DNA of 64,000 bases from Duganella zoogloeoides (GTDB lineage: Bacteria > Pseudomonadota > Gammaproteobacteria > Burkholderiales > Burkholderiaceae_D), in assembly GCF_034479515.1 (NCBI RefSeq), contig NZ_CP140152.1, positions 2,232,001-2,296,000 of the forward strand, written 5' to 3'. Under the pieces are notes generated by a model. That model made no database searches. It saw only the letters and a program-made list of their open reading frames with translations, and had not been told where the DNA came from. Made by a program: the position numbers and the translations under genes. Position 1 is the first letter of the stretch. Each line of letters starts with the position of its first letter. Below are positions 9,680 to 26,906 of this stretch, piece by piece.

Positions 9680-11140
9680 ATGGAAGACCTCACGCTCGAC
9701 CAGCCGTGCGCCAACCGCGCCGACTTCGCCGAACCTTCGGCAGTCGCGCAGTTGCACTGCATAGACCCCGCCACGCGCGCCGATGAAGCCGATACCGTGG
9801 CCATGCGGCTCGGCAGCGCGCAGTTCCGCCGCGATTACGGCCTGCGCTACGCCTACCTGTCCGGCGCCATGTATCGCGGCATCGCCTCGCGGCAGATGGT
9901 AGTGGCGATGGGGCGCGCGGGACTGCTCGGTTTTCTCGGCACCGGCGGCATGAGCCTGGAGCAGATCCGTGCCGACATTATCGCCATCCGCGAACAGCTC
10001 GAGCCGCACCAGGCGTGGGGCATGAACCTGATCGCGCAGGTGGCCGATGATGCCATGGAGCGCGCCACCGTGGCGCTGTACCTGGAGCTGGGCGTGCACG
10101 CCATCGAAGCGTCGGCCTTCATGCAGATCACGCCCGCGCTGGTGCATTACCGCCTGCAAGGGCTGGAGGCAGGGCCGGATGGTGCGGTCGTGTGCCGCAA
10201 CAGGATACTGGCCAAGCTGTCGCGCCCCGAGGTGGCGCGCGAGTTCATGCAGCCGGCGCCCGAACGCATCGTCGCGCGGCTGCTGGCCGAAGGTGCAGTC
10301 ACCGAGCAGCAGGCACGGCTGGCGCGCGACGTCAGCATGGCCAGCGACATCTGCGTGGAAGCCGATTCGGGCGGCCATACCGACCAGGGCGTGGCATTGG
10401 TGCTGCTGTCGGCCATCCAGCGGCTGCGCCGCGAACTGGGGTGTGACCCCGGCTCGCTGCGGGTGGGCCTGGCCGGCGGCATCGGTACGCCGGAGGCGGT
10501 GGCCGCAGCCTTTATCCTGGGCGCGGATTTCGTGCTGACCGGCTCCATCAATCAGTGCACCGTGGAGGCGGGCACCAACGATGCCGTCAAGGACCTGCTG
10601 CAGGAGATCGACATCCAGGATACGGCGTACGCACCGGCCGGCGACATGTTCGAGATGGGGGCCAAGGTGCAGGTGCTGCGCAAGGGCGTGTTCTTCCCGG
10701 CGCGCGCCAACCGCCTGTACCTGCTGTACAGCCAGTACGAATCGCTAGCCGAGATCCCGGCCGCCGTGCGCACGCAGCTCGAAGAAAAATACTTCCGCAA
10801 GCCGCTCGACGACGTATGGCGCGAAACCCGGGCCTTTCTCGCCACGCGCGGCCGCCAGGACGACGTCGACAAGGCCGAGACCAACCCGAAGCACAAGATG
10901 GCGCTGGTATTCCGCTGGTACTTCGGCCACTCGATGCGCGCCGCCATCAATGGCGACACCGCCAACCGCGTCGACTACCAGATCCACACGGGCCCCGCGC
11001 TCGGTGCATTCAACCGTTACGTGAAAGGCACGCCGCTGGAGAGCTGGCGCGCACGCCATGTCGATCGCATCGGCCGCCAGCTGATGCTCGATGCGGGCGC
11101 CCTGATGCTCGAGCGCGTGGCCGCGCTCACCGCCAACTAG
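9680..11140 (+). CDS. PfaD-family trans-acting enoyl reductase
   Basis: 486 residues. AGGAG is 8 nt upstream of the ATG at 9680; earlier in-frame starts (9662, 9674) are too close to it. The FMN-dependent TIM-barrel of the PfaD/trans-AT enoyl reductase family is clear: 'GFLGTGGMSLEQI', 'WGMNLIAQ', the signature 'ICVEADSGGHTDQG', and 'GLAGGIGTPEAVAAAF' for phosphate binding, with the family's C-terminal helical region ('YFGHSMRAAINGD'). In trans-AT polyketide and PUFA pathways it reduces enoyl-ACP intermediates in trans. First gene of a tightly packed operon with an HMG-synthase cassette. Confidence 0.92.
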   Translation: MEDLTLDQPCANRADFAEPSAVAQLHCIDPATRADEADTVAMRLGSAQFRRDYGLRYAYLSGAMYRGIASRQMVVAMGRAGLLGFLGTGGMSLEQIRADIIAIREQLEPHQAWGMNLIAQVADDAMERATVALYLELGVHAIEASAFMQITPALVHYRLQGLEAGPDGAVVCRNRILAKLSRPEVAREFMQPAPERIVARLLAEGAVTEQQARLARDVSMASDICVEADSGGHTDQGVALVLLSAIQRLRRELGCDPGSLRVGLAGGIGTPEAVAAAFILGADFVLTGSINQCTVEAGTNDAVKDLLQEIDIQDTAYAPAGDMFEMGAKVQVLRKGVFFPARANRLYLLYSQYESLAEIPAAVRTQLEEKYFRKPLDDVWRETRAFLATRGRQDDVDKAETNPKHKMALVFRWYFGHSMRAAINGDTANRVDYQIHTGPALGAFNRYVKGTPLESWRARHVDRIGRQLMLDAGALMLERVAALTAN

Positions 11141-11152
11141 AGGAAAGCGAAC

Positions 11153-12403
11153 ATGCTACACGTCGGAATAGAAGCGATGAACGTTTATGCCGGCACGGCT
11201 TGCGTCGATGTGCGCGCGCTGGCGCGGCACCGCCAGCTGGACCTGGCCCGCTTCGACAACCTGCTGATGCTGGAAAAGACCGTGGCGCTGCCCAACGAGG
11301 ATCCGGTCACCTTTGCCGTCAACGCCGCGCGGCCGCTGGTCGATGCGCTGTCGCCGCAAGAAAAAGACCGCATCGAGATGGTCATCACCTGCACCGAGTC
11401 GTCGTTCGACTTCGGCAAGTCGCTCAGCACCTATGTGCACCAGTTGCTGGGACTGAACCGCAACTGCCGGCTGTTCGAATTGAAGAACGCCTGCTATTCT
11501 GGCGTGGCCGGCTTGCAGATGGCGGTCAATTTCATTCTCGCGCAAACCTCGCCCGGCGCCCGGGTGCTGGTGGTGGCCACCGATATCAGCCGCTTCCTGA
11601 TGGACGAGGACACGCACGACCAGGACTGGTCGTTTGCCGAACCCAGTGGCGGCGCCGGCGCGGTGGCAATGCTGGTGGGCGAAGACCCGCAGGTATTCCG
11701 GATTGACGTGGGCGCCAACGGCTACTACGGCTACGAGGTGATGGATACCTGCCGCCCGTCGGCCGACAGCGAGGCCGGCGACGCCGACCTGTCACTGCTG
11801 TCGTACCTCGACTGCTGCGAGAACGCGTACCTCGAATACCGCAAGCGCGTGCCGCAGGCGGACTACGCCAGCTCGTTCCAGTACCTGGCGTTCCACACGC
11901 CGTTCGGCGGCATGATCAAGGGCGCCCACCGCAGCCTGATGCGCAAGCTGGCGCCGGCGGCATCGGCGGAGATCGAGCTGGACTTCAACCGCCGCGTGGC
12001 GCCGGGCCTCGACTACTGCCAGCGCGTGGGCAACACCATGGGCGCGGCGGCAATGGTGTCGCTGGCCAGTACCATCGCCAACGGCCGCTTCGACACGCCG
12101 CAGCGGGTGGGCTGCTTCTCGTACGGGTCCGGCTGCTGCTCGGAGTTCTTCAGCGGCGTGGCCACCAGCGCGGGCCAGGCGCGCCTGCGCACCATGGACA
12201 TCGACCGGCGGCTCGACCAGCGCTACCGCCTGTCGATGGCCGAATACGACGAGATCCTCTCTGGCGGCGGTGTGGTGCGCTTCGGCACCCGCAACGCCAC
12301 GCTGGCCGAACGTTATACGCCGGCGCCAACGGACGGGCAGGGCGCCACGCTGTTCCTGCGCCGCATCCAGGACTACCACCGGGAGTATGCATGGGCGGCC
12401 TAG
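11153..12403 (+). CDS. HMG-CoA synthase-like beta-branching enzyme (PksG type)
   Basis: 416 residues, AGGAAA before the ATG. The three catalytic residues of HMG-CoA synthases are present: Glu in 'CTESSFDFGKS', the acyl-accepting Cys114 in 'KNACYSGVAG', and His in 'YLAFHTPFGGMIKG'. In beta-branching cassettes this enzyme condenses acetyl-ACP with a beta-ketoacyl-ACP to give an HMG-like branch. The cassette partners lie in the same operon: a PksH-like hydratase (overlapping by 13 bp), a discrete ACP (17073) and a decarboxylative ketosynthase (17320). This makes a role in primary mevalonate metabolism unlikely. Confidence 0.92.
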   Translation: MLHVGIEAMNVYAGTACVDVRALARHRQLDLARFDNLLMLEKTVALPNEDPVTFAVNAARPLVDALSPQEKDRIEMVITCTESSFDFGKSLSTYVHQLLGLNRNCRLFELKNACYSGVAGLQMAVNFILAQTSPGARVLVVATDISRFLMDEDTHDQDWSFAEPSGGAGAVAMLVGEDPQVFRIDVGANGYYGYEVMDTCRPSADSEAGDADLSLLSYLDCCENAYLEYRKRVPQADYASSFQYLAFHTPFGGMIKGAHRSLMRKLAPAASAEIELDFNRRVAPGLDYCQRVGNTMGAAAMVSLASTIANGRFDTPQRVGCFSYGSGCCSEFFSGVATSAGQARLRTMDIDRRLDQRYRLSMAEYDEILSGGGVVRFGTRNATLAERYTPAPTDGQGATLFLRRIQDYHREYAWAA

Positions 12404-13173
12404 CGCCGGCAGGCGCCACAGTGGTCACCCGGCGCGATGGCGATGTGTGCTACCTGCAGCTGCACCGGCCCGACGCCGGCAACGCCATCAACGGCGCCCT
12501 GCTGGCGGAATGCGGCGCGGTGCTGCGCGACTGCGCGGCGTGGGCGCGGGTGGTGGTAATCGAGGGCCTGCCGCACGTCTTCTGCCCGGGCGCCGACCTG
12601 CATGAAGCGGCGCAGTCCCGGCCCGACCGCCAGGCCGCTGCGCGCAGCGCCGAGGCGCTGTATGGCTTGTGGCTGCGGCTCAAGCGCGGACCGTTCATCA
12701 GCATCGCGCATGTGCGCGGCAAGGTCAGTGCGGGCGGAGTGGGGTTTGTCGCCGCCTGCGACCTGGTGCTGTGCGCGGACGACGCCACCTTCGCCTTGCC
12801 CGAACTGCTGTTCGGGCTGATGCCCGCCTGCGTGCTGCCGTTTCTGATCGAACGCGTGGGCAGCGCCCGCGCCCACGCCATGATCCTGATGACACAAGCG
12901 GTGTCCGCGCCGCAGGCGGCAGCGTGGGGGCTGGCCGACTCTACCGCCGCCGACAGCGCCAATCTATTGCGCATGCACCTGCTGCGTTTGCGGCTGTTGC
13001 CGCGCGACGCCATCGCCCGTTACAAGCGTTACGCCGCCAGCCTCGATGGTGGCCTCGAAGCTGCCCGCGACAAGGCGGTGGCTGCCAACGCCGAACTGTT
13101 TTCCGATCCGGCCACGCACGACAAGCTGGCGCGCTACGCCGCCACCGGCCAATTTCCATGGGAGGTCGTATGA
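12391..13173 (+). CDS. Enoyl-CoA hydratase-like protein (PksH/ECH1 type)
   Basis: 260 residues of the crotonase fold. It shows the first oxyanion-hole region 'HVFCPGADLHEAA' and the second 'RGKVSAGGVGFVAACD', followed by 'FALPELLFGLMPACVLPFL'. This closely matches the PksH/ECH1 dehydratase subfamily of HMG-synthase cassettes, which dehydrates the HMG-ACP branch to a glutaconyl product. The ATG lies inside the end of the HMG-synthase gene and the stop overlaps the next start, so translation is coupled. A second, decarboxylating ECH2 (PksI type), normally needed to finish the beta-branch, is not seen in the window. Confidence 0.88.
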   Translation: MGGLAPAGATVVTRRDGDVCYLQLHRPDAGNAINGALLAECGAVLRDCAAWARVVVIEGLPHVFCPGADLHEAAQSRPDRQAAARSAEALYGLWLRLKRGPFISIAHVRGKVSAGGVGFVAACDLVLCADDATFALPELLFGLMPACVLPFLIERVGSARAHAMILMTQAVSAPQAAAWGLADSTAADSANLLRMHLLRLRLLPRDAIARYKRYAASLDGGLEAARDKAVAANAELFSDPATHDKLARYAATGQFPWEVV

Positions 13174-14231
13174 AAACCTGTCTGTTCCCAGGCCAGGGCT
13201 CGCAAGCGAAAGGCATGGGCCGCCACCTGTTCGAGCGGTTTCCCGATCTGACCGCGCAGGCGGACCAGGTTCTGGGCTACTCGATCCGTGAACTGTGCGT
13301 CGATGATCCGCGCCAGCAGCTCAATCAAACGCTTTACACCCAGCCGGCAATTTTCGTGGTGAGCGCGCTGGCGTGGTACGAGCACCTGGCCAGCCACGGC
13401 AAGCCCGATTTCGTGGCCGGTCATAGCCTGGGCGAATTCAACGCATTGCTGGCCGCCGAATCGTTCGGCTTCGAGACCGGCCTACGGCTGGTGCGCAGGC
13501 GCGCGGAGCTCATGAGCGAGGCAGCCGACGGCGCCATGGCGGCCGTGCTGAACCTGGACGCGGCCGACATCGAAGCCATCCTGCGCGACCATGGGCTCGA
13601 CCAGATCGACATCGCCAACCTCAATGCGCCGTCGCAAACGGTGATCTCGGGCGCGCGCGAGCAAATTGCCCGGGCCGCGCCATTGTTGGAAGCCGGGAAG
13701 GGGCGCTGCATCCCGCTCAACACCAGCGGCGCCTTCCACTCGCGCCTGATGGAACCGGCGCGCCAGCAGTTCGAGGCCTTCCTCGCCAGCTTCGACTTCC
13801 GCGCGCCGGCCATTCCCGTGATCGCCAACGTCACCGCGCAGCCGTACCAGCCCGGCGCGGTGGCAGCCAACCTGGCGCGCCAGCTCACGGGCACTGTGCG
13901 CTGGAATGAATCCATCGCCTACCTGCTGGCGCTGGACCCCGGCCAGCAGATGGTGGAATTGGGCCACGGCGAAGTGCTGACCAACCTGCTCAAGAAAATC
14001 CGCAGCGAGCGGCAGGTGGCGCCGGTGTCCGCGCCAGCCGCCACCGTCCACGAGCGCGTGCGCGACTGGAATTTGCGCCACCCGGTGGGCACGCGCGTGC
14101 GTTCGGCCATCGTCGCCGGCGCCGTACTGGCCACCCGCACCGAAGCCGTGTTGCTGTTCCAGCACCGCCCCGCCGTGTACCTCGACGGCTACCAGGGCTA
14201 TTTCGACCTCGACGAACTGCAGCCGGCTTGA
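13170..14231 (+). CDS. Trans-acting malonyl-CoA:ACP acyltransferase
   Basis: 353 residues, GTATGA overlap with the hydratase gene. FabD fold: 'CLFPGQGSQAKGMGRHLF', nucleophile Ser86 in 'GHSLGEF', 'VRRRAELM' with the carboxylate-binding Arg, and the catalytic His in 'SGAFHSRLM'. All key residues are intact, so this should be the malonyl loader of the pathway. After the AT domain (about residue 285) there is a roughly 65-residue C-terminal extension ('HPVGTRVRSAIVAG', 'YLDGYQGYFDLDE') that plain FabD lacks; similar tails occur on discrete trans-ATs. Confidence 0.9.
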   Translation: MKTCLFPGQGSQAKGMGRHLFERFPDLTAQADQVLGYSIRELCVDDPRQQLNQTLYTQPAIFVVSALAWYEHLASHGKPDFVAGHSLGEFNALLAAESFGFETGLRLVRRRAELMSEAADGAMAAVLNLDAADIEAILRDHGLDQIDIANLNAPSQTVISGAREQIARAAPLLEAGKGRCIPLNTSGAFHSRLMEPARQQFEAFLASFDFRAPAIPVIANVTAQPYQPGAVAANLARQLTGTVRWNESIAYLLALDPGQQMVELGHGEVLTNLLKKIRSERQVAPVSAPAATVHERVRDWNLRHPVGTRVRSAIVAGAVLATRTEAVLLFQHRPAVYLDGYQGYFDLDELQPA

Positions 14232-14256: not shown

Positions 14257-16233
14257 GTGTCTGAGCTGACCGATCCGCCTGATGACATCGCAATCATCGG
14301 CATGGCTTGCCGCTTTCCCAGCGCGGGCGATTATGAAGCGTTCTGGCGCGCGCAACGCGATGGCCGGTTTTGCGTGGGCGAAGTGCCGGCCGACCGCTGG
14401 CGCTGGCAGCAGCATTATTCCACCCGGCGCGAGGACGAGAACAAGACCATCAGCAAATGGGGCGGCTTCATGGCCGACATCGACCAGTTCGACGCCGCGC
14501 TGTTCCGCATTTCGCCGCGCGAAGCGGAGCTGATGGACCCGCAGCAGCGCATCATGCTGGAACTGGCCTGGTCATGCTTCGAAGACGCCGGCTATGCGCC
14601 CGCCAGCCTGCGCGGCAGCAATACCGGCGTCTATCTCGGCGTGTGCAATTTCGATTACAAGATGCAGGTCGAACGGGCACCGGCCGCCATCGAAGCCCAT
14701 ATGTCCACCGGCGTGCACACCACGCTGATCCCCAACCGCGTGTCGTACGAATTCGACCTGCGCGGCCCCAGCATCCCGTTCGACACCGCCTGTTCCAGCT
14801 CGCTGGTGGCGCTGGCCGAAGCCGTGCACGCGCTGCGGCGCGGCGATTGCGGCGCGGCGCTGGTGGGCGGCGTGAGCGTGCTGCTCAATCCCACCCACTT
14901 CATCTCGTTCTCCAAGGCCGGCATGCTGTCGCCGCGCGGCGTGTGCCGCTCCTTCGACGAAGGCGCAGACGGCTACGTGCGCGGCGAGGGTGCAGGACTG
15001 ATCATGCTCAAGCCGTTGCGCCAGGCGCTGCGCGACGGCGACAAGGTCTATGGACTGGTGAAGGGCGTGGCCGTCAACCATGGCGGCAAGGTAGCCACCG
15101 TCACATCCCCGAATCCATTTGCCCAGGCACGCTGCGTGGAAATGGCGCTGCGCGACGCGGCATTGTCTCCCGCCGCCATCGGTTACATCGAAGCCCACGG
15201 CACCGGCACCCCCAAGGGCGATCCGATCGAGATGAATGCGCTGATCCGCGCCTACGCCAGCCAGGCTAGGGCGCAAGGCGTGGAATTGGCTGCGCGCTCG
15301 TGCGCGATCGGCAGCGTGAAGACCAGCATTGGCCACCTGGAAGCGGCGGCGGGCATCGCCGGCATCATCAAGGTGCTGATGGCCTTCAGGCACGTCACCT
15401 TGCCCGGCATACCCGGCTTTGCGGGGCCACACGCCAACCTGGCGGCGGCCGCCGGCCGCTTCGCTTTCAGCGCCGAGCCGCAACCGTGGCCGGCGCCGGT
15501 GGACCGGGTTGGCATCATCCAGCCGCGCCGGGCGGCGATCAACAACTTCGGTTTCAGCGGCGTCAACGCCCACCTGGTGCTGGAAGAGTACCTGCCGGCA
15601 GCGCGGCAGGAGCTACCGGCACAGCCGGAACTGATCGTGCTGTCGGCCCGCACCGACGCTGCGCTGCGCCAGGGCGCCATCGACCTGTTGCAGGTGTTGG
15701 CGGATGGACCGGTGCCGGCGCTGAGCGATGTCGCGTTTACCCTGCAAACAGGCCGTGCGCCGTTCAATCGCAGGCTGGCAGTGGTGGCAGACAGCCACGA
15801 AACGCTGCGGCGCGAACTGCAACGCCACCTCGACGGCAGCGCTGTCATCACTGGCGCCAACGCCACCAACAACGCCACCATGACCACCACCGGTCGCGCC
15901 GTCGCCGAAGTCGCTGACCGCGCCCAGGCCGATGCATGGGCACGAGAGGGCCATTTGCCGGAACTGGCCCGCCACTGGGTTGACGGCGGCACCGTGGACT
16001 GGCGGCTGCTGCGTGCGGAAGGTTCGGCGCGCAGGGTGTCGCTGCCCGGTCACCCGCTGTCGCCCCGGCCGTACTGGGTCACCGGCGCCACCGGCCTGTC
16101 GGCGCTGCACGGACGGCGCAAGGCCAAACGCGCAGCACGTATCAGCAAGGGCATCAACCAGGGCGTCAACCAGGGCGCCGACAGCCAGGGTGCCGGTCTT
16201 GCCACCGCCACCAGCACCGCGCCCGCCACGTAA
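14257..16233 (+). CDS. Stand-alone polyketide ketosynthase with AT-docking linker
   Basis: 658 residues from the GTG at 14257, chosen because AAGGAG sits 5 nt upstream; an in-frame ATG at 14233 would add 8 residues. The KS triad is complete: C179 in 'DTACSSSLVA', H314 in 'EAHGTGTPKGDP', H360 in 'KTSIGHLEAAAG'. After about residue 430 it carries the post-KS linker seen in trans-AT modules ('SDVAFTLQTGRAPFNRRL', 'VDWRLL', 'VSLPGHPLSPRPYWV') and a basic Gln/Asn-rich tail. No KR, DH, ACP or TE domain follows. It is a single condensing enzyme that must work iteratively or once, with a separate ACP. Confidence 0.9.
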   Translation: MSELTDPPDDIAIIGMACRFPSAGDYEAFWRAQRDGRFCVGEVPADRWRWQQHYSTRREDENKTISKWGGFMADIDQFDAALFRISPREAELMDPQQRIMLELAWSCFEDAGYAPASLRGSNTGVYLGVCNFDYKMQVERAPAAIEAHMSTGVHTTLIPNRVSYEFDLRGPSIPFDTACSSSLVALAEAVHALRRGDCGAALVGGVSVLLNPTHFISFSKAGMLSPRGVCRSFDEGADGYVRGEGAGLIMLKPLRQALRDGDKVYGLVKGVAVNHGGKVATVTSPNPFAQARCVEMALRDAALSPAAIGYIEAHGTGTPKGDPIEMNALIRAYASQARAQGVELAARSCAIGSVKTSIGHLEAAAGIAGIIKVLMAFRHVTLPGIPGFAGPHANLAAAAGRFAFSAEPQPWPAPVDRVGIIQPRRAAINNFGFSGVNAHLVLEEYLPAARQELPAQPELIVLSARTDAALRQGAIDLLQVLADGPVPALSDVAFTLQTGRAPFNRRLAVVADSHETLRRELQRHLDGSAVITGANATNNATMTTTGRAVAEVADRAQADAWAREGHLPELARHWVDGGTVDWRLLRAEGSARRVSLPGHPLSPRPYWVTGATGLSALHGRRKAKRAARISKGINQGVNQGADSQGAGLATATSTAPAT

Positions 16234-16265: not shown

Positions 16266-17039
16266 ATGGCGAACAATATGCAAGCACAGGCCAGGCAGGT
16301 GATCCAGCAGGCCATCCTGCGTCATGGCGGCATGGCGCGTTACGAGCAGGTCGATCGGATTGTCTGCGACGTGACCACCATGGGCGGGCTGGCCATGCGC
16401 CGGCGCGGGCTGCACGCCGATTTCCCGCTGCCTAACCGGGTCACGCTGATGCCGCGCCAGGGCCAGGCGGTGCTGCATGACTATCCGGCGCCGGGACGCT
16501 CCTGCCTGTACGACAACGGCCGCGTGGCAATGGTGGGGGGAGGGCGCGAGACGGTCTTCGACAGCGACAATCACCGCCAGCAGATGCTCAGCGTCTCGCG
16601 CCTGCGGCGTCCATGGACCGTGCTCGATGCTGTCTATTTTTTCGGCTATGCGATGACGCACTACGCCTCGCTGCCGTTTTCGCTGCCAGGGTTGAAAGTG
16701 GTGGGGCTGGCGCGGCGCAGCAGCGGCGACTGGCGCACCCGCATCGATGTCGAGTATCCCGATGGCGCCCACACCCACAGCAAGCAGGAGACCTTCTATT
16801 TCGATGACACCGGCCTGCTGGTGCGCCACGACTACCGTCCGGAGGTGAGCTCGCCGGTCGCGCGCGCCGCCAACTTCCTGCACGAGTACAAGAACTGCGA
16901 CGGCCTGCTGATCACCGAACGGCGCAAGGTCCACTTCCGGCTCGGGCGACTGGTCACGCCGCTGATCGTGATGGACGCCAGCATCAAGGTGCGGGAAGTG
17001 ATGTACAGCTCCCCTGAAATGGCGGTCATCTCGGCATGA
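16266..17039 (+). CDS. Conserved-looking protein of unknown function in PKS operon
   Basis: 257 residues, no signal peptide. SD-like AAAGGA precedes the ATG. The sequence is rich in beta-strand character ('VDRIVCDVTTMGGLAMRR', 'TRIDVEYPDGAHTHS', 'KQETFYFDDTGLLVRHDY', 'LIVMDASIKVREVMYSS'), suggesting an open beta-sheet fold of the LolA or SRPBCC kind. I do not recognise a named family. Its place between the ketosynthase and the ACP, in an operon of biosynthetic enzymes, suggests a tailoring, cyclisation or carrier role; this is inference only. Confidence 0.7.
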   Translation: MANNMQAQARQVIQQAILRHGGMARYEQVDRIVCDVTTMGGLAMRRRGLHADFPLPNRVTLMPRQGQAVLHDYPAPGRSCLYDNGRVAMVGGGRETVFDSDNHRQQMLSVSRLRRPWTVLDAVYFFGYAMTHYASLPFSLPGLKVVGLARRSSGDWRTRIDVEYPDGAHTHSKQETFYFDDTGLLVRHDYRPEVSSPVARAANFLHEYKNCDGLLITERRKVHFRLGRLVTPLIVMDASIKVREVMYSSPEMAVISA

Positions 17040-17072: not shown

Positions 17073-17336
17073 GTGGAAACTCAAGCTATCGTCGATATCA
17101 TCGCCGGCCACGCGCGCGAGGTGCTGCCCGACCTGGGCACGCGGCCGCTGGGCAGCGCCGACTCGTTGCGCGAACTGGGCGCCAATTCCATCGATCGCGC
17201 CGAAATCCTGATGCTCACCACGGCCACGCTGGGTCTGCGCATTCCGCTGATCGAGCTGGCGCAGCCGCGCAACGTGGGCGAACTGGCCGAGTTGCTGTGG
17301 GAGCGGCTGGCGGAGCGGGGTGCACGTGTCGCCTGA
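17073..17336 (+). CDS. Discrete acyl carrier protein
   Basis: 87 residues with a GTG start preceded by a near-perfect AAGGAGGA. The phosphopantetheine serine is S39 in 'LGANSIDRAEIL', followed by the helix III region 'LAQPRNVGELAELLW'. The Asn before the Ser, instead of Asp, and Arg instead of Leu/Val after it are typical of the ACPs of HMG-synthase cassettes (AcpK-like), which present acetyl groups. It is the only ACP in the window. It overlaps the decarboxylative ketosynthase gene by 17 bp, a pairing that fits malonyl-to-acetyl-ACP conversion. Confidence 0.9.
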   Translation: METQAIVDIIAGHAREVLPDLGTRPLGSADSLRELGANSIDRAEILMLTTATLGLRIPLIELAQPRNVGELAELLWERLAERGARVA

Positions 17337-18581: not shown

Positions 18582-19121
18582 ATGTCCGTCACAACACACG
18601 GCCTGCTCGAGCACTACCTGCCGCGCTATACCTTTGCCCACCGCTACAAGACCGTGGTGCGTTGCGGCGACATCGGCCGCGTGTACGATATCGCCCGCGA
18701 CGTCGATTTATCGCGTTCGCGCGTGATCGTGCTGCTGTTCCGGCTGCGCGGCCTGCCATGCGACCGCTGGCGCGCGCGGGCGTTTTGCGCTGCCATGCAC
18801 TGGACCGAGCTGGCACAGCGGCGGCCTGCGGAATTCCTGGTCGCCTACTGGCGCGGCGGCGACGGCAACCGCATTCGCCGCATCGAGGACGCCGCGCAGT
18901 TTTGCGGCGCGCTGCCGGGCGCCACGCAAAAAGCGGGCTTCACGTTCCGCTTCCGCCAGATCGATGCCAAGCGCGTGGAAATCGATACCGAAACCCGGGT
19001 GCTGTGCATCGGTGCGCGCAACCGGCTGAGCTTTCTCGGGTACTGGCTAATGATCAAGCCGTTCAGTGGCCTGGTGCGCAAGGAAATCCTGCGCCTGATC
19101 CGCCTGGAGGCCGAGTCATGA
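18582..19121 (+). CDS. SRPBCC-fold protein
   Basis: 179 residues from the ATG at 18582, 8 bp after the ketosynthase stop. The pattern fits the START/SRPBCC helix-grip family: an N-terminal strand with 'VVRCGDIGRVYDIARDVDL', an arginine-rich 'LLFRLRGLP', and a C-terminal 'DTETRVLCIGARN' followed by 'YWLMIKPFSGLVRKEILR'. This fold forms a deep hydrophobic pocket and includes polyketide cyclases/aromatases, but the C-terminal pattern here is that of a broad bacterial group without known function. A product-binding or cyclising role is suggested by the operon only. It ends in an ATGA overlap with the hydrolase gene. Confidence 0.75.
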   Translation: MSVTTHGLLEHYLPRYTFAHRYKTVVRCGDIGRVYDIARDVDLSRSRVIVLLFRLRGLPCDRWRARAFCAAMHWTELAQRRPAEFLVAYWRGGDGNRIRRIEDAAQFCGALPGATQKAGFTFRFRQIDAKRVEIDTETRVLCIGARNRLSFLGYWLMIKPFSGLVRKEILRLIRLEAES

Positions 19122-20005
19122 CGGCGGCAGCCAACCAGTCCAATGCCATGGTGGTCAAACTGCCCTTGATCGTGCTGGCGCCGCTGCGGCTGTATTTTCA
19201 GCTGGCCGGCCGCATCGTGCCGCAGGCGGCAGAGGGGGCGTTCCGCTGGCTGCTGTCGCACATGCCGCGCCGGGGTCTGTCTGCCCACGAGCAGGCGTTT
19301 CTGGATGGTACAGAGCGCCTCGCCTTCGATTGCGGCGATGCGGTGCTGGCCGGCTACAGCATCGGCGCAGGTCCCGTCGTGCTGCTGGTGCATGGCCTGC
19401 AGGGCAGCGCCGCCAATTTCCGCGCGCTGGCGCCGGCGCTGGCGCACGCAGGGTATCGCGCCGTCATGTTCGACGCAGTCAACCACGGCAACTCGCCACC
19501 GGGCACCGCGTTTTCCGGGCGCTCGGTGCAGCACCTGCGGTGCGTGATCAAAAAACTGGGGCCGCTGCACGCCATCGTCTGTCATTCGGCCGGCGCCTAT
19601 CTGACCATGCTGGCGCTGTGCGAACCAGCGGCCAGCGTGGAAAAATGCGTGTACCTGGCGCCGTACCCGGATATCGCCACCACGCTGCGCACGTTTGCCG
19701 ACTACCTGTGGGTGCCGCGAACGATGGAGCCGCGCCTGCGGCGCTGGTTCGAGGACATCGGCGGCATGCCGTTCGAGCAGCAGTCGATGCGTCACTGCCT
19801 GCCGCGCCATGGCACTACCCGCAACCCGCCATGCCTGTTCGTGCACGACACCGACGACCGCCACATCCCGCTCGACTGTACCTACGCCACGCTGCGGCAC
19901 CTGCCGCACGCGCGCCTGCACGTGACCAGCGGCCTCGGACACTTCCACATCCTCAAGGAACCGGGCGTGATCGCCCATATCGTCGAATTTCTCCAACGTC
20001 CATGA
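19118..20005 (+). CDS. Alpha/beta hydrolase
   Basis: 295 residues. The hydrolase core is complete: oxyanion region 'LLVHGLQGSAANF', nucleophile Ser in 'CHSAGAYL', acid in 'HDTDDRHIP', and His in 'GLGHFHIL'. The first 60 residues include a hydrophobic stretch ('LPLIVLAPLRLYFQLAG') that may associate with the membrane. Start ATGA overlaps the SRPBCC stop and the stop overlaps the next start. With no thioesterase domain elsewhere in the locus, this enzyme is the best candidate for releasing the product from the ACP; a resistance or tailoring esterase is the alternative. Confidence 0.82.
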   Translation: MTAAANQSNAMVVKLPLIVLAPLRLYFQLAGRIVPQAAEGAFRWLLSHMPRRGLSAHEQAFLDGTERLAFDCGDAVLAGYSIGAGPVVLLVHGLQGSAANFRALAPALAHAGYRAVMFDAVNHGNSPPGTAFSGRSVQHLRCVIKKLGPLHAIVCHSAGAYLTMLALCEPAASVEKCVYLAPYPDIATTLRTFADYLWVPRTMEPRLRRWFEDIGGMPFEQQSMRHCLPRHGTTRNPPCLFVHDTDDRHIPLDCTYATLRHLPHARLHVTSGLGHFHILKEPGVIAHIVEFLQRP

Positions 20006-20937
20006 CCAGTATCCACGCAATCAAGCCATCCCGCCCCGAGCTGGTGTTCCTGTTCCCCGGCCAGGGTTCGCAGCACTACCAGATGGGGCGCGCGCTGTTC
20101 GACGCCGATCCCGCTTTCCGCGATCTGATGACCGGCCTCGATGCGCAATTCACCGAACGCGAGGGCGTGTCGCTGCTCGCCCGCCTGTACGGTTCGCTCT
20201 CGGCCGCCACGCCGCTCGACGACATCCACCTGAGCCACCCGCTGGTCGTGATGATCGAATACTGCCTGGCCACCGTGCTGCGCCAGCGCGGCCTGCATCC
20301 GACAAGGGTGATTGCGTCCAGCGCCGGTGAGTTTGCCGCGCTGGCGTTCACCGGCCGCATCACCATCGAGACCGCGCTGGACATGATGGCGCGCCAGGCG
20401 CAATGGGCAACGCATTACGTGGAGCCGGGCTTCATGCTGGCGGCCATGGCGCCGCGTGCCTGGTGCGCGGCCGATCCCGACGTGTGCCGGCTGGCGTGGG
20501 TGGCTGGCGTGGGCATGCCGTCGGCCACCGTGCTTACGGGCCGGCGCCAGAACCTGGCGCCGCTGGAGACGGCGCTGCGCGCGCGCGGTGTGGCATTTGG
20601 CCGCCTGCCGGTGCGGGTGCCGTTCCACAGCGCGCTGATGGACCCGATGCGCGCGCACTGGGTGCGGCGCTACAACGGCCATCCGCACGCGGAGGCGCTG
20701 TGGGACGTGATCCGCCAGCCGTTCGACTTTCCGGCGTCGCTGGCCATGCTGGACCGGCAGGCGCCATGCACGCTGGTGGACGTGGGGCCGTCGGCCACGC
20801 TGGCCAACTGGATCCGCCACGGCGCCGTGCCGCATGCCGACCAGTGGCGCGTCCACGGCATCCTCTCGCCCTGGGGCGGCGACCTGCCACGGCTGCAGCA
20901 GGTGCTCGACCTTGCCGATGCCCACACCGCCGCATGA
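20002..20937 (+). CDS. Second trans-acting acyltransferase (or acyl hydrolase)
   Basis: 311 residues, FabD-like fold: 'FLFPGQGSQHYQMGRALF' at the start, nucleophile S107 in 'ASSAGEFAAL', catalytic His in 'VRVPFHSALMDP'. The usual GHSLGE motif is altered: the His before the nucleophile is Ser and the Leu after it is Ala. Discrete second ATs in trans-AT clusters are often proofreading acyl hydrolases (PedC-like) or select another extender or starter unit. An Arg near the malonate-binding position is retained ('MMARQAQW'), so dicarboxyl substrate use is still possible. Overlaps genes on both sides by 4 bp. Confidence 0.82.
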   Translation: MTSIHAIKPSRPELVFLFPGQGSQHYQMGRALFDADPAFRDLMTGLDAQFTEREGVSLLARLYGSLSAATPLDDIHLSHPLVVMIEYCLATVLRQRGLHPTRVIASSAGEFAALAFTGRITIETALDMMARQAQWATHYVEPGFMLAAMAPRAWCAADPDVCRLAWVAGVGMPSATVLTGRRQNLAPLETALRARGVAFGRLPVRVPFHSALMDPMRAHWVRRYNGHPHAEALWDVIRQPFDFPASLAMLDRQAPCTLVDVGPSATLANWIRHGAVPHADQWRVHGILSPWGGDLPRLQQVLDLADAHTAA

Positions 20938-22481
20938 TGACGCGCGGCGCCCGCCTGTTCCTGTTCGGCGTGATGGCGTTCGGCCAGTTCATGGCGCTGG
21001 TCGATATCCAGATCGTGGCCGCCTCGCTCAACGCCATCCAGGCCGGCCTGTCGGCCGCACCGGACGAGATCAGCTGGGTGCAAACCGCGTACCTGATGGC
21101 CGAACTGGTGATGATCCCGCTGGCTGGCTTCCTGGCCAAGGCCCTGTCCACGCGCTGGCTGTTCACGTTGTCCGCCGGGCTGTTCACGCTGGCGAGCGCC
21201 CTGTGCGGGCTGGCGTGGGATATCGATTCGATGATCGCCTTCCGCGTGTTCCAGGGTTTTGTGGGCGGCGCCATGGTGCCCACCGTGTGGGCCACGGGCT
21301 TCATCCTGTTTACGGGCCGCGACCGCGCGCTGGCCTCGTCCATCCTCGGCGTGGTGACCATGCTGGCGCCGGTGTCCGGGCCCACCATCGGCGGCTGGAT
21401 CACGGAGCTGATCGACTGGCGCTGGATTTTTTACATCAACGTCGTGCCGGGCATCGTGGTGACGGTGCTGTCGGCGGCGCTGATCCGCTTCGACGAAGCG
21501 CGGCCGGCGCTGCTGCGCACGCTGGACTGGTCGCACCTGCTGGCAATGGCGCTGTTCCTCAGTTGCCTCGATTATGTGCTCGAAGAAGGCCCGCGTCACG
21601 ACTGGTTCAGTGACACCGGCATCGCCGTGGCGGCGTGGGTGGCGCTGGTGGCGTTCGTGCTGTTCGTCGAACGTTCGCTGCGCTCGGCCACGCCGGTGGT
21701 GCGCCTTACGCCATTCAAGCGGCCGACGTTCGTGCTGGCCAGTATGCTGGCGCTGGCCACCAGCGCGGCCATTTTTGCGGCCACTTACCTGGTGCCGGTG
21801 TTCCTGGGCCGGGTGCGCGGCTACAACAGCCTCGATATCGGCACCACCGTGTGCGTGACGGGACTGGGCATGCTGATCAGCGCGCCGCTGACCATGCGCC
21901 TGCTCAGGCATGTCGATCCGCGCCTGGTGATCGCGCTCGGGGTGCTGATTTTTACCGCCAGCCTGTGGATGTTCTCGTTCATCGGCCCGGAATGGGGTTT
22001 CAAGGAACTGTTCTGGCCCCACGTGCTGCGCGGCGTGGCCGGCATGCTGTGCGTGGTGCCGGCCGCAAACCTGGCGCTGGCCGATCTCGAAGACGAGGCG
22101 CTGCACGAAGCGTCCGGCCTGTTCAACCTGCTGCGCAACCTCGGAGGTGCGTTGGGCATCGCGCTGGTCAATACCTGGCTGCAGGACCACAGCCGGCTGC
22201 ACCTGCTGCGCCTCGGCGAGGCGCTCGGCGCGCGCGGCGACGGCGCCCGGCAACTGCTCGACGGGCTGCTGCACGACCTGTCCACCCGCACTACCGACGC
22301 CGCGCACGCCTGGCTGGCCGCGCAGGCGCTGGTAGAACGGCACGTGCAGCGGCAGGCGCTGGTGCTGGCGTTCGACGACGTCTTCCGCCTGATGGCCTGG
22401 CTGTTGCTGGCCACGCTGGTGCTGGTGCCCTGGTGCCGGCCGGCGCCGCCGTCTTCCAACCCTCATTCGATAGAACCATGA
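20934..22481 (+). CDS. DHA2-family MFS efflux transporter (EmrB-like)
   Basis: 515 residues, about 14 membrane segments. It has the first-helix pattern 'FGQFMALVDIQIVAASLN', 'SWVQTAYLMAELVMIPLAG', and the antiporter motif C-like 'SGPTIGGWITE' in helix 5, which mark the DHA2 drug/proton antiporters. It begins with ATGATG overlapping the acyltransferase stop and ends overlapping the membrane-fusion gene. The EmrB/EmrA pair normally joins an outer-membrane channel to expel hydrophobic compounds, so it is the likely exporter of the polyketide. No TolC-like gene is present nearby. Confidence 0.9.
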   Translation: MMTRGARLFLFGVMAFGQFMALVDIQIVAASLNAIQAGLSAAPDEISWVQTAYLMAELVMIPLAGFLAKALSTRWLFTLSAGLFTLASALCGLAWDIDSMIAFRVFQGFVGGAMVPTVWATGFILFTGRDRALASSILGVVTMLAPVSGPTIGGWITELIDWRWIFYINVVPGIVVTVLSAALIRFDEARPALLRTLDWSHLLAMALFLSCLDYVLEEGPRHDWFSDTGIAVAAWVALVAFVLFVERSLRSATPVVRLTPFKRPTFVLASMLALATSAAIFAATYLVPVFLGRVRGYNSLDIGTTVCVTGLGMLISAPLTMRLLRHVDPRLVIALGVLIFTASLWMFSFIGPEWGFKELFWPHVLRGVAGMLCVVPAANLALADLEDEALHEASGLFNLLRNLGGALGIALVNTWLQDHSRLHLLRLGEALGARGDGARQLLDGLLHDLSTRTTDAAHAWLAAQALVERHVQRQALVLAFDDVFRLMAWLLLATLVLVPWCRPAPPSSNPHSIEP

Positions 22482-23557
22482 CGCAAACCGAAACAAAAAG
22501 CCGGCGGCGTGCTTTGCTGCCGCTGCTGACGGCACTGGCGGTCGGCGGCGCCGGCGCCCTGTGGCTGGCGGCACCCGGCAGCCAGGTCTCGACCGACGAC
22601 GCGTACCTGCGCGCCGACGATACCAGCATCGCCCCGCAGGTGAAGGGGAGGGTGCTGGAAGTGCTGGTGCGCGACCACCAGCGCGTGGTGACCGGCGCGC
22701 CGCTGGTACGGCTCGACGCCGACGACCTGGCCGCGCGCACCCGCGCCGCTGCTGCCGACCTGCAGGGCGCGCGTGCCAACGTGCAGGCCGCGCAGGCAGC
22801 GCTGGACAGCCTCGATGCGGAGGAACAGCTGGCGGCGGCCCAGATCACCACCGTGCGGGCGGGGATCGTCGCGGCACGGGCGCGGGTAGCGCGCACCGCC
22901 GCCGAGCAGGCGCGCCACGAAAAGCTGGCGCAATCGGGCGCCGTGGCCCAGCGCGAACTGGAACTGTCGCGCACCGGCGCGCTGGACGCCACGGCGGACG
23001 CCGACCGCAGCACCGCGCAACTGGCGGTGGCGCAGCGTCAGCTGGAGCTGACACGCAGCCGGCGCGCCAGCCTGCGCGCCGCGCTGGCCCAGGCCGAAGC
23101 GGGCGTGGCCCGCGCCGACGCCGCGCTGGCGCTGGCGCGCCAGGAGCAGGGTTACGCGGTGATACGGGCGCCGGTCGATGGCGCGGTGGGCGCCTTGCAG
23201 GTGCATCGCGGCGATATCGTGCAACCGGGCTCTGCATTGATGACGCTGGTGCCGCTCGAGCGCATGTACGTGGTGGCGTACTTCAAGGAGACGCAAAGCG
23301 AGCGCATCGTCGCCGGCCAGCCGGTGCGGCTCGATATCGACGCGCTGCCCGACCAGCCCTTGCGTGGTACGGTGGAGAGTTTTGCTCCCGGTACCGGCGC
23401 GCAGTTTTCACTGCTGCCGTTCGAGCCAGGGACCGGCAACTTTACCAAGATCGTGCAGCGGGTGCCGGTACGGATTGCGCTTGATGGCGGCCAGGAAAAG
23501 TGGTTGTCGAAACTACGGCCGGGCTTGTCTGTTACGGCCCGGGTCGCCATCAAGTAA
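22478..23557 (+). CDS. HlyD/EmrA-family membrane fusion protein
   Basis: 359 residues. One N-terminal membrane anchor ('LLPLLTALAVGGAGALW') is followed by 'TDDAYLRADDTSIAPQVKG', the classic EmrA beta-barrel/lipoyl half-motif. A long alanine-rich coiled-coil hairpin spans about residues 85-215. The second lipoyl half is 'GYAVIRAPVDGAVG', and the beta-barrel holds 'MYVVAYFKETQSERI'. It bridges the inner-membrane MFS pump and an outer-membrane channel. Its start overlaps the pump stop (ATGA), so the two are co-expressed, and it ends the main PKS operon. Confidence 0.92.
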   Translation: MTQTETKSRRRALLPLLTALAVGGAGALWLAAPGSQVSTDDAYLRADDTSIAPQVKGRVLEVLVRDHQRVVTGAPLVRLDADDLAARTRAAAADLQGARANVQAAQAALDSLDAEEQLAAAQITTVRAGIVAARARVARTAAEQARHEKLAQSGAVAQRELELSRTGALDATADADRSTAQLAVAQRQLELTRSRRASLRAALAQAEAGVARADAALALARQEQGYAVIRAPVDGAVGALQVHRGDIVQPGSALMTLVPLERMYVVAYFKETQSERIVAGQPVRLDIDALPDQPLRGTVESFAPGTGAQFSLLPFEPGTGNFTKIVQRVPVRIALDGGQEKWLSKLRPGLSVTARVAIK

Positions 23558-23703
23558 TCAAGGAGGCCAATACTTGCAAGGCGCGCTTGTCAAGCCGCGT
23601 AATTACTATCGGTGGCAAAATTGTCGCGTAGGCCATTTTTTTGTTTCGTTCAATTTTGCCTGTCGTTACAATCGCTGCATCGGAATTCCAAGGCGTGCGC
23701 ACC

Positions 23704-24321
23704 ATGATTTGCCTGATCGTCGATCATCATCCCGTCATTTCCAGCGGCCTGGCGCAGATGGTGCGCGCCAGCTTTCCCGGCTGGCAGGTGGATATCGCCC
23801 ACACCGTTGCTGCCGCCATCGAACAGGCCGGTGCGCACCAGCCCGATGTCGTGCTGATCAGCCTGCTCATGCCGGACAATTCGGGACTGGCGCTGCTCGG
23901 CCACTTGCAGCAGCACGATCCGAACAGCCGCCGCACGGCCAGCATCGTCATCGCCGATGCGCCCGACGCCGAGACGGCGCGCCTGTGCGAGCGGCTGGGC
24001 GCGCACGGTTTCATGTCGCGCGCCCACGCATTTACCGCGATTGCCGCGGCGATCCGCGCGGTCTGCGCGCGGCAAAAATATTTCGAGCCGGCGCCCGATA
24101 CGGCGACGCCTGTACCGGCGCCGATCCGCTTTACGCCGCGCCAGCGCGACATCGTCGATCTGCTGTTGATCGGCTACTCGAACAAGCAGATCGCGTGCAC
24201 GCTCAACCTCAGCAGCGGCACCGTCAAGAACTACATCTTCGACCTGATGCGGATGATTTCGGTCAGTTCGCGGCTGGAGATGGCGCTCAAGATCCGCGAC
24301 AGCGGCTACCAGCGCTCGTGA
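23704..24321 (+). CDS. LuxR/NarL-type regulator with degenerate receiver
   Basis: 205 residues from the ATG at 23704; an in-frame GTG at 23641 would add 21 unlikely residues. An N-terminal receiver-like domain is followed at about 141-205 by a LuxR helix-turn-helix ('FTPRQRDIVDLLLIGYSNKQ', 'SSGTVKNYIFDLMRMI'). The phosphoacceptor aspartate is replaced by S53 ('PDVVLISLLMPDNSG') and one acidic-pocket Asp is His ('IVDHHPV'), so phosphorylation control is unlikely. It probably responds to a ligand or to its own level, and is a good candidate for the pathway regulator of the PKS locus. No partner kinase is adjacent. Confidence 0.85.
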   Translation: MICLIVDHHPVISSGLAQMVRASFPGWQVDIAHTVAAAIEQAGAHQPDVVLISLLMPDNSGLALLGHLQQHDPNSRRTASIVIADAPDAETARLCERLGAHGFMSRAHAFTAIAAAIRAVCARQKYFEPAPDTATPVPAPIRFTPRQRDIVDLLLIGYSNKQIACTLNLSSGTVKNYIFDLMRMISVSSRLEMALKIRDSGYQRS

Positions 24322-24478: not shown

Positions 24479-24976
24479 ATGAACGACGCATCCCCCAATC
24501 CGTGGCTGGTGCTGCGCACCCGCAGCCGCCAGGAAAACGTGGTGCAGGAAGTGCTGCGCCAGCGCCAGATCCATTCCTACCTGCCCAAGCACCGCGAGGC
24601 CGCCAAACCGACCGAAACGGCGCTGTTTCCCGGTTATATCTTCGTGCAGCCGCGCCCCGAGCAGGTCAGCGCGCTGCGCACCGTGCGCGGTTCGTGTGGC
24701 CTCCTGATGAGTTGTGGGCGCCACGCGCAGGTGGCCGCCAACGATGTGCTGGCGATCCGCATCATGGTCGGCAGCGGCGCGCCGCTCGATGTCCATGCCG
24801 ACCTGGTGGCCGGGCAGCCGATGGAAGTGATCGCCGGGCCGTTCAAGCATGCGCAAGGGCAGTTCGTCAGCGTGGGGCGCCAGCGCCGGCTGGTGATCAA
24901 CCTGCACCTGATCGGCCGTGGCCTCAGCGTCGAGATCGACGCCGCCCACGTACGTCCGCTCGCCAACGCCGCCTGA
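24479..24976 (+). CDS. NusG-paralogue transcription elongation factor (RfaH/LoaP-like)
   Basis: 165 residues; GGAGG 6 nt before the ATG. The NGN domain is clear ('WLVLRTRSRQENVVQEVL', 'IHSYLPKHRE', 'LFPGYIFVQPRPEQ', 'VRGSCGLLM'). A C-terminal KOW-like domain follows from about residue 115 ('GQPMEVIAGPFKHAQGQF', 'LVINLHLIGRGLSVEID'). Housekeeping NusG is normally encoded with secE next to ribosomal genes; this copy sits at a polyketide locus. Specialised paralogues (RfaH, LoaP, TaA) prevent premature termination in long biosynthetic operons. The 14-kb PKS operon upstream is the natural target. Confidence 0.88.
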   Translation: MNDASPNPWLVLRTRSRQENVVQEVLRQRQIHSYLPKHREAAKPTETALFPGYIFVQPRPEQVSALRTVRGSCGLLMSCGRHAQVAANDVLAIRIMVGSGAPLDVHADLVAGQPMEVIAGPFKHAQGQFVSVGRQRRLVINLHLIGRGLSVEIDAAHVRPLANAA

Positions 24977-24988: not shown

Positions 24989-26209
24989 ATGTCGATCACC
25001 GAAATCTACCTGCTGGCGATGATGATGATTTTTGCCGTGCCTTACCTGGTGTGGCGCCTGCTCAATTCCGACAACGTGGCGCCGCTGGTGGTGGTGCAGA
25101 TCGTCGGCGGCGTGCTGCTCGGGCCCGGCGTGCTGGGCGCCGCCTATCCCGGGTACCACGCCTTCGTGTTTTCGCCGCAGGTCACGCTGGCGCTGAACGG
25201 CATCGCCTGGTGGGCGGTGATGGTGTTCGTGTGGATTGCCGGCGTCGAACTCGATTTGCGCCAGGCCTGGCGCCATCGCGGCGAGAGCCTGGTGGTGGCC
25301 GGCATGGCGCTGGTCACGCCGCTGCTGCTGGGCGTGGGCGTGGCGCTGGTGCTGCTGGGCTGGCAGTCCGACTGGATCGGCCCGCGCGCCCATACCTGGC
25401 AATTCGTCACCGGCGTGGGCATGGGATGCGCGGTGACGGCGCTGCCGATCCTGGTGCTGTTCCTGGAAAAGCTCGGTGTCCTGCGCAGCACGCTGGGCCA
25501 GCGCCTGCTGCGCTACGCCAGCTTCGACGACCTGGCGATCTGGGGCGTGCTGGCGCTGATCCTGCTCGACTGGGAGCGCATCGGCCGCCAGGGGTTGTTC
25601 CTGTGCGGTTTCGGCATCGCCGCCTGGCTGGTGCGGCGCGTGATGGTGCGCTTGCAGGAGGGCGACCGCTGGTATGCCAGCCTGACCTGGCTGCTGGCCT
25701 GCTCGTTTTTGTCGGACTGGGCCGGGCTGCACTACATGGTGGGCGCGTTCCTGGCGGGCGTGGTGCTCGATGCCGGCTGGTTCGACCGCGCCCGCATGGA
25801 CGCGCTGCGCGAGCAGGTGCTGTTTGCCTTCATGCCGGTGTTTTTCCTCAGCACCGGGCTCAAGACCACCTGGACCGTCGGCGCGGAGACGGTCTTCGTG
25901 GCGGCCGGCTTGCTGATGGCGGCCAGCGTGGCCGGCAAGCTGCTGGGCGTGGGACTGGCCGGGCGCATGCTGGGCTGGCCCCGTGGCGATGCGCGCGTGA
26001 TCGGCTGGCTGCTGCAAACCAAGGGCTTGATTGAGCTGATCTTCGCCAACATCCTGCTCGACAAGCAGATCATCTCGAACCAGATGTTTACTGCCATGCT
26101 GCTGATGGCCATCGGCAGCACCATGCTGGCCTTGCCGATGGTGCGCAACAGCCACCTGGTGCCGGCCCGCGCGCCGGCCGCCATCCCAGGCGGTCCGCTG
26201 CGTGAATGA
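24989..26209 (+). CDS. CPA2-type cation/proton antiporter
   Basis: 406 residues with about 12 hydrophobic segments. It fits the Na+/K+:H+ exchanger family: 'VVVQIVGGVLLGPGVLG' in an early helix, 'MVFVWIAGVELDLRQAWRH' and 'FVTGVGMGCAVTALPILV', with 'YASFDDLAIWGVLAL' carrying the paired acidic residues of the ion site. There is no C-terminal RCK/TrkA-N domain. It lies 12 bp after the NusG-like gene and overlaps the phosphopantetheinyl transferase gene, so it belongs to the secondary-metabolite unit. Antiporters in such loci can protect the producer from ion-disturbing products. Confidence 0.85.
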   Translation: MSITEIYLLAMMMIFAVPYLVWRLLNSDNVAPLVVVQIVGGVLLGPGVLGAAYPGYHAFVFSPQVTLALNGIAWWAVMVFVWIAGVELDLRQAWRHRGESLVVAGMALVTPLLLGVGVALVLLGWQSDWIGPRAHTWQFVTGVGMGCAVTALPILVLFLEKLGVLRSTLGQRLLRYASFDDLAIWGVLALILLDWERIGRQGLFLCGFGIAAWLVRRVMVRLQEGDRWYASLTWLLACSFLSDWAGLHYMVGAFLAGVVLDAGWFDRARMDALREQVLFAFMPVFFLSTGLKTTWTVGAETVFVAAGLLMAASVAGKLLGVGLAGRMLGWPRGDARVIGWLLQTKGLIELIFANILLDKQIISNQMFTAMLLMAIGSTMLALPMVRNSHLVPARAPAAIPGGPLRE

Positions 26210-26906
26210 GGTGAGCGACCTTTGCGTGGTGCTGTGCGTGGCGTTGCCGGACGAATACCACCCGGCAGCGCTCGAGCGCGGGCTGCGCCGCCGCCTCGAC
26301 CGGCCAACGCTGGACCGCATCGACCGCCTGCGCCAGCCGGTGGACCGCTTGCGGTCGATGCTGGGCCGCCTGCTGCTGCGCCACGGGCTGCGGCTGCGTG
26401 GCCTCGACGATGGCGCCGGCGTGACGATCGGCCACTATGGCAAGCCACGTCTGGTTGATGGCACGGCCGAGTTCAACCTCTCGCACGCGGGACGCTGGGT
26501 GGTGTGCGCCATCTCGCGGACGGCGGTTGGCGTCGATGTCGAACAGGTGCGGCCGTTCGACCTGGTGCTGGCGCAGCGCTTCTTTCACCGGCGCGAATGC
26601 GCGGCGCTTGCCGTGCAACCGGCAGCCGCCCGGCACGACTATTTCTTTCGCCTGTGGACCGCCAAGGAAGCGTACATGAAGGCGCTCGGACTCGGTTTTC
26701 AGCGCGACATGGCGTCGTTCAGCGTGGCGCCGCGCGCCGACCTGCACGTGGCGCTCGACGATCCGCAGATGTCGCCGCAGCCCTACGTACTGTCCCACCT
26801 GGAGCTCGATCCCGGTTACCGCCTGGCGCTGTGCCACCACGGTGAGCCGGTGACGGTGCTACTGGTAACCATCGAGCACTTGTTGTCACCAACCATCATT
26901 CATTAA
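26202..26906 (+). CDS. Sfp-type 4'-phosphopantetheinyl transferase
   Basis: 234 residues from a GTG at 26202 inside the antiporter end. It shows the family motifs in order: 'FNLSHAGRWVVCAIS', 'AVGVDVEQVRP' with the Mg-binding Asp/Glu, and 'FRLWTAKEAYMKALGLGF'. The enzyme moves the phosphopantetheine arm from CoA to the serine of carrier proteins, so it would activate the ACP at 17073. Its size and motif spacing match Sfp rather than AcpS. It is the last gene of the polyketide locus. Confidence 0.92.
   Translation: MNEVSDLCVVLCVALPDEYHPAALERGLRRRLDRPTLDRIDRLRQPVDRLRSMLGRLLLRHGLRLRGLDDGAGVTIGHYGKPRLVDGTAEFNLSHAGRWVVCAISRTAVGVDVEQVRPFDLVLAQRFFHRRECAALAVQPAAARHDYFFRLWTAKEAYMKALGLGFQRDMASFSVAPRADLHVALDDPQMSPQPYVLSHLELDPGYRLALCHHGEPVTVLLVTIEHLLSPTIIH

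Follow-up and report, generated by a model that had tools for sequence, protein, structure and literature searches.

The pks cluster of Bacillus subtilis is a trans-acyltransferase (trans-AT) polyketide synthase (PKS) cluster with a hydroxymethylglutaryl-CoA synthase (HMGS) cassette. Like other clusters of this type, such as those for bongkrekic acid, kalimantacin and bryostatin, it combines a PfaD-type enzyme, trans-acting ATs, a donor acyl carrier protein (ACP), a decarboxylative ketosynthase (KS0), HMGS, an enoyl-CoA hydratase (ECH1), a phosphopantetheinyl transferase (PPTase) and ketosynthase (KS) domains with a linker. According to PMC12560621, donor ACP, KS0, HMGS and ECH1 form the minimal cassette, which acts on a beta-ketoacyl chain bound to an acceptor ACP of the synthase. 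Recombination near the ends of KSs and the gain or loss of blocks of modules are established in trans-AT PKSs (excerpts of PMC11260071 and PMC7930024).

In this study we analysed 64,000 nucleotides of Duganella zoogloeoides (contig NZ_CP140152.1, positions 2,232,001 to 2,296,000; hereafter the window), in which a polyketide locus occupies positions 9680..26906. The locus shares all of the above components with these clusters, and its minimal cassette is complete by the definition in the excerpt of PMC12560621. However, it differs from them in having no modular PKS, no recognised acceptor ACP, ketoreductase (KR), dehydratase (DH) or second hydratase (ECH2; discrete genes were sought within the locus), and a KS that is one hybrid domain. 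Probably, what is left here is the rest of a trans-AT PKS cluster with an HMGS cassette, from which recombination between two KSs excised the megasynthase. Laboratory recombination of the rapamycin PKS offers a parallel in that homologous stretches of modular PKS genes recombined to give new junctions; those recombinants were mostly functional (excerpt of PMC5663706), whereas the window retains no multimodular synthase.

A mosaic ketosynthase without a megasynthase

The KS encoded at 14257 is a mosaic: residues 1-371 belong to one lineage (KS-A), and residues 375-658, comprising the end of the fold, the linker and the tail, to another (KS-B). As informative we counted the 273 sites where the window matches one but not the other of two protein records, P0051 (a native KS-A) and P0045 (a KS-B form). 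Up to residue 371 the window follows KS-A at 132 of 144 sites and KS-B at 12; from residue 375 it follows KS-B at 129 of 129. Its N-terminal half is 76-77% identical to P0051 and 86% to P0050, its C-terminal half 97% identical to P0045 and 84% to P0047. The N-terminal half of P0045 and P0047 is that of another KS (P0045 is 43% identical to the window there), in which the HGTGT and GHLEAAAG of the window are replaced by HGIGS (HGIAS in P0047) and GYAEVASG. The C-terminal half of P0050 and P0051 in turn differs from the window, at 33% over 51 and 41% over 79 positions of segment 372-455, the value for P0050 being rough because this record shifts frame near its end. Among six KSs compared over this segment, none outside the hybrid and KS-B group exceeded 45%. 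Such a mosaic is what would be expected if KS-KS recombination had removed intervening DNA, and we are highly confident that this KS was born of recombination between two KS lineages.

The closest full-length relatives are P0043 (95-96%) and P0044 (83-85%), and in all three sequence clusters (window, P0043 and P0044) the hybrid is full-length with its catalytic motifs kept. In a tree of N-terminal halves (midpoint-rooted for drawing only), the native P0051 and P0050 fall outside five collapsed KSs with 99/95 support, namely the hybrids of the window, P0043 and P0044 and the truncated P0048 and P0049, whose inner order is partly supported. The fold of the window KS is predicted with a mean pLDDT of 84.4 and the breakpoint lies within a single helix (362-379), about 62 residues ahead of the NAHVILEE-type motif at 437. 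Engineered fusions at this motif mostly stalled, and natural recombination sites lie further downstream (excerpt of PMC11260071). The junction in the window KS is therefore unusual and, being inside the KS, may well be unproductive.

The window genome is a single contig of 6,321,842 b and 100% complete. Across it we found nine matches to the KS family PF00109: the window KS, KS0, a FabF-like KS, a KS pair near 1.426 Mb in open reading frames of 410 and 400 aa, and four weak ones. Four of the nine reach E<=1e-20 (the window KS, KS0, the FabF-like KS and one of the 1.426-Mb pair) and none lies within a long PKS frame. Besides the donor-type ACP of the locus, the ACP family PF00550 has three matches genome-wide, two of them at 1.414 Mb and one next to the FabF-like KS, which makes four in all. 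Thus neither a linked nor an unlinked modular PKS was found by the two whole-genome searches, and so no AT-less modular megasynthase of the kind that characterises trans-AT HMGS clusters. The locus does not belong to the type II or iterative minimal PKSs with a KS-chain length factor pair and a dedicated extender ACP either, because its KS is of type I with a linker and its second KS matches PRK07103.

Duganella sp. Leaf126 (G040), of the same genus, keeps 16 of the 17 genes from PfaD to PPTase in the identical order, with 62-93% identity, and likewise no megasynthase was found in its genome (eight PF00109 matches, four at E<=1e-20). It differs from the window in its left flank and in its KS, which matches residues 1-373, continues with approximately the final 15 residues of UNK, the gene that follows the KS in the window, and then ends; the remainder of both the KS and UNK is gone. 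P0049 shows the same KS-UNK fusion. An 11-mer, CATCAAGGTGC, at 15366 in the KS recurs at 16982 in UNK. This repeat could explain the site of a slippage deletion, yet is no evidence alone, because it is within chance: 155 of 300 codon-shuffled UNK genes share a word of at least 11 with the KS N-terminal half. The KS of Leaf126 itself shares no word of 10 or more with UNK at the breakpoint. We also observed that the hybrid KSs and the truncated ones, though joined to different partners, share a break at about codons 371-374 (window 15366 and 16982; locus L048, 14490-14515). This stretch of the KS is possibly a deletion hot spot, but the 11-mer, being within chance, does not explain the use of one KS-A codon with two partners.

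How do other HMGS clusters in the family compare? An HMGS match (E<=1e-40) is present in 14 of 392 family genomes, including the window genome and Leaf126; this sample was drawn from a larger group and may miss relatives. At E<=1e-20, and with FabF-type KSs counted, PF00109 finds 10-41 matches in 11 of the 12 others, compared with four apiece in the window genome and Leaf126. Three occur in the twelfth, G153, whose HMGS is only 35% identical. The window HMGS is 64-69% identical to those of nine family loci. Six HMGS-bearing genomes of the family (G111, G148, G170, G210, G235 and G340) resemble the window in HMGS (65-69%) and, at the five loci where they were seen, in KS0 (50-62%) and ACP (49-54%). 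They differ in that each holds 16-41 PF00109 matches, many of which lie in open frames of 3500-9500 aa. Among plasmids, KS0 matched 239 records, all below 60% identity; on the two examined, those of Ensifer canadensis and Eleftheria terrae, the HMGS cassette adjoins a very large gene, of 9.6 kb in the former and at least 14.6 kb in the latter, and we noted nothing annotated like UNK there. Our literature searches returned nothing combining Duganella, trans-AT and polyketide, and nothing relevant on HMGS cassettes without a modular PKS.

An earlier note on this DNA had offered two readings, an unusual minimal system on a single ACP or, alternatively, a megasynthase that was lost or lies elsewhere. 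Of these, loss of the megasynthase is the better supported, given the hybrid KS, the loss from the same codon in Leaf126 and the KS-rich genomes of 11 of 12 other HMGS carriers. The note's statements that the locus has no modular PKS and no KR, DH or ECH2 held up, the former throughout the complete genome and the latter within the locus. Its view of one free KS as the only elongating enzyme stands in so far as the locus has a single elongating-type KS, but this KS is a hybrid of two lineages. The note had asked whether the gene order recurs without a PKS; it does so in one genome, Leaf126, where the KS is however truncated.

Gene content, neighbourhood and selection

The gene set of the locus was confirmed by family models, with all genes on the + strand. 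Identities below are at the amino acid level against Leaf126 unless stated otherwise, and w is the ratio of non-synonymous to synonymous substitution rates in the same comparison.

9680..11140, +, PfaD-type trans enoyl reductase (TIGR02814, 655.6 bits, cut-off 449; 82%, w 0.089)
11153..12403, +, HMG-CoA-synthase homologue, beta-branching HMGS (PF08540/PF01154; 93%, w 0.037)
12391..13173, +, ECH1-type enoyl-CoA hydratase, PksH-like (PRK07112, 349 bits, cut-off 250)
13170..14231, +, trans-acting malonyl acyltransferase AT1 with GHSLGE (fabD model TIGR00128, 308 bits, cut-off 261; likely start 13170)
14257..16233, +, hybrid KS with C-terminal linker, 658 residues (CSSS, HGTGT and GHLEAA motifs present)
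15366..15381, +, codons 371-375, the breakpoint region within the hybrid KS; on the KS side, the sequence missing from Leaf126 is bounded here too
16266..17039, +, UNK, LolA/LolB-fold protein of 257 aa (no Pfam or NCBIfam match)
17073..17336, +, donor-type ACP with GANSIDRAEI (PRK07117, 97.2 bits, cut-off 79)
17341..18573, +, decarboxylative KS0 with Ser in place of the active-site Cys, GAASAS (PRK07103, 571.7 bits, cut-off 445)
18582..19121, +, small conserved protein (82%, w 0.103; in Pfam only DUF1731 at E 0.0085)
19118..20005, +, alpha/beta-hydrolase (PF00561)
20002..20937, +, second AT-like protein AT2 with an SSAGE motif (PF00698; 32-35% to the second ATs in loci L050, L051 and L060)
20934..22481, +, EmrB-type major facilitator superfamily (MFS) exporter (TIGR00711)
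22514..23557, +, EmrA/HlyD-type adaptor (PF16576; TIGR00998 under its cut-off)
23695..24321, +, LuxR-type response regulator (PF00072 and PF00196)
24479..24976, +, NusG-like protein (PF02357; 92%)
24989..26209, +, CPA2-type cation/proton antiporter (PF00999; TIGR00932 under its cut-off)
26202..26906, +, Sfp-type PPTase (PF01648)

With the fabD and PfaD models both above their cut-offs, the locus has the trans-acting malonyl AT and the PfaD enzyme typical of trans-AT HMGS clusters. The models bear out the inventory of the earlier note (PfaD, HMGS, ECH1, ACP, KS0, two ATs, hydrolase, exporter and PPTase), except that its SRPBCC label for 18582-19121 finds no Pfam support. AT2 carries SSAGE at the position of GHSLGE in AT1 and is possibly an acyl hydrolase, judging from this motif. 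In four further clusters of the family, the ACP next to KS0 has GANSIDRAD or GANSMDRAD for the GANSIDRAEI of the window ACP; a fifth, G170, was excluded from this comparison since it was extracted out of frame. It is the PRK07117 match together with this gene neighbourhood beside KS0 from which we infer a donor ACP. KS0 itself could thus still make acetyl-ACP, but HMGS has no recognised partner. The NusG-like gene would be in keeping with an operon that was once long, by analogy with LoaP, a specialised NusG paralogue that promotes production of the PKS enzymes for difficidin and macrolactin (excerpt of PMC12691694).

UNK, mostly analysed as a 246-aa form starting at 16299, has no Pfam or NCBIfam match and no signal peptide apparent by eye. 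Its half-barrel lipid-binding fold places it in the LolA/LolB superfamily, and relatives at 28-37% identity in Planctomycetota, Polyangia, Rhizobium, Leptospira and others indicate a wide LolA-fold family. Outside the window genome, no relative at E<=1e-30 was found in 74 genus, 399 order and 369 class genomes. In 294 family genomes there were 11 other matches at 28-31% identity and no close homologue. Wider genome contigs gave nine loci (28-37%), the available DNA of which holds a weak ECH in two of nine and no other cassette gene. No match was confirmed in viral contigs, and 56 plasmid records all fall below 60% identity. P0036, on a 1.1 Mb contig, has a UNK homologue that is 87% identical over the first two thirds and unmatched from near residue 170 on, which suggests a frameshift or a sequencing error.

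Immediately 5' of the locus, at 4068-9140, lies a conserved gene group of unknown function, a set of the STM4015-STM4011 families that encodes a leucine-rich repeat protein, an ATP-grasp-like and a sulfatase-like protein and two radical S-adenosylmethionine (SAM) proteins. We rejected its radical SAM genes as pathway members: they belong to the STM4011-STM4015 families, and nothing in the 40 kb Leaf126 segment matches this set.

Of 16 cassette genes compared between the window and Leaf126, 15 have w values of 0.031-0.231, indicating purifying selection, and there are no stops within the aligned parts. The values are approximate; they come from single tblastn segments at dS 0.48-1.25, to which we applied the experimental YN00 implementation of Biopython and, as a fallback, NG86. 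Some segments were partial (ACP 1-69, AT2 1-290, HlyD 23-347, PPTase 24-224, flanking kinase 1-300, flanking regulator 1-377), and the comparison covers only the N-terminal half of the KS, as its C-terminal half and UNK are absent from Leaf126. The flanking kinase and regulator have w values of 0.048 and 0.040. The PPTase (26226-26906, against L049 4333-4944) is more diverged than the other cassette genes, at 62% amino acid identity and w 0.416. The lowest w of all (0.031) is that of the KS N-terminal half despite the truncation of this gene in Leaf126, so that either the truncation is recent or the fragment still matters.

Collapse of the cluster and alternative explanations

We propose that an upstream elongating KS-A would have recombined with a downstream KS-B at codons 371-375, which would have removed the intervening megasynthase and left a single in-frame hybrid KS gene. 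In Leaf126, a deletion beginning at the same KS-A codon would have taken out everything up to nearly the end of the UNK gene. An intact megasynthase would then have preceded the collapsed forms, and the losses would be recent relative to the split of the species. The residual cassette would no longer make the original polyketide, a part of the proposal that we regard as likely.

Several points weigh against this proposal. The intact parent megasynthase was not recovered: in a length-adjusted KS search the top identity among the best 120 of 1429 was 50%, which is weak evidence, since the rows were ranked by summed bits over many KSs. KS-B and the native KS-A are known solely from protein records without DNA context, and that the two derive from one synthase is an assumption of the proposal. 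The hybrid KS is full-length in three clusters, with its motifs and a confident structural model. Moreover, the low w in 15 of 16 genes argues that the cassette has not been long adrift. The collapse is therefore either recent and recurrent, leaving a relic, which we prefer, or old and still useful.

The second possibility is the strongest alternative, although we think it unlikely. After an old collapse, the compact set of hybrid KS, AT1, donor ACP, KS0, HMGS, ECH1, PfaD, hydrolase and exporter might make a short, possibly carboxylated beta-branched acid on a single ACP, or work on intermediates bound to CoA or to a FabC-type ACP. The purifying selection is compatible with such a minimal single-ACP system, which the earlier note had put forward, and so are the full-length hybrids in three clusters, with P0043 standing for 19 member sequences, and the tree that sets the collapsed KSs apart from the native ones. 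The bryostatin and leinamycin pathways, which according to the excerpt of PMC12560621 have no trans ECH2, keep a carboxylated branch. On the other hand, the locus has a single ACP, which is of the donor type, so that the acceptor needed by HMGS is not recognised there; nor is an ECH2, and both points speak against autonomous beta-branching. Leaf126 and P0049 have a truncated KS, Leaf126 has no UNK, and the UNK record P0036 changes frame. The closest C-terminal half (P0045) sits on a different N-terminal half, hence the hybrid is not universal among close relatives. That the collapsed cluster works as a minimal non-modular beta-branching pathway, making and exporting a short branched acid, seems to us about equally unlikely.

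It is also conceivable, at a low probability, that a megasynthase was never present at this locus and that helper genes and a recombinant KS were gathered by transfer. The left flank does differ, as the STM4011-4015 genes are not in the Leaf126 segment. However, a native KS-A with another C-terminal half exists (P0050/P0051), the KS linker is typical of multimodular proteins, and nearly all other HMGS-bearing genomes of the family are rich in KSs, as shown above. Slightly less probable again is an assembly artefact, in which an intact megasynthase of the window genome or its relatives collapsed at repeated KS sequence. KS repeats assemble poorly, and short contigs are the source of most of the relatives P0043-P0051. 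Yet the crossover interval is three uninformative residues and the KS N-terminal halves are only 43% identical, which would leave little for a k-mer join (judged for KS-B from protein only); the Leaf126 junction lies at a short microhomology and recurs in P0049, and the window genome is one contig. Finally, a megasynthase elsewhere in the genome on which the cassette acts in trans, the other suggestion of the earlier note, is highly improbable: trans-acting enzymes need no linkage in principle, but the KS and ACP searches of the complete genome contradict it for the window genome, barring a plasmid missing from the assembly.

The evolution of trans-AT PKSs is usually inferred from intact hybrids; here a reduced or failed product of KS-KS recombination appears to have been caught. 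The breakpoint is resolved to a few codons, and five related KSs break there in two ways while the trans-acting cassette is under selection. If the minimal system were true, one excision would have turned an assembly line into a small synthase of discrete enzymes. The fate of a reduced trans-AT cluster, whether dead, kept for export or immunity, or working as a small synthase, is directly testable here.

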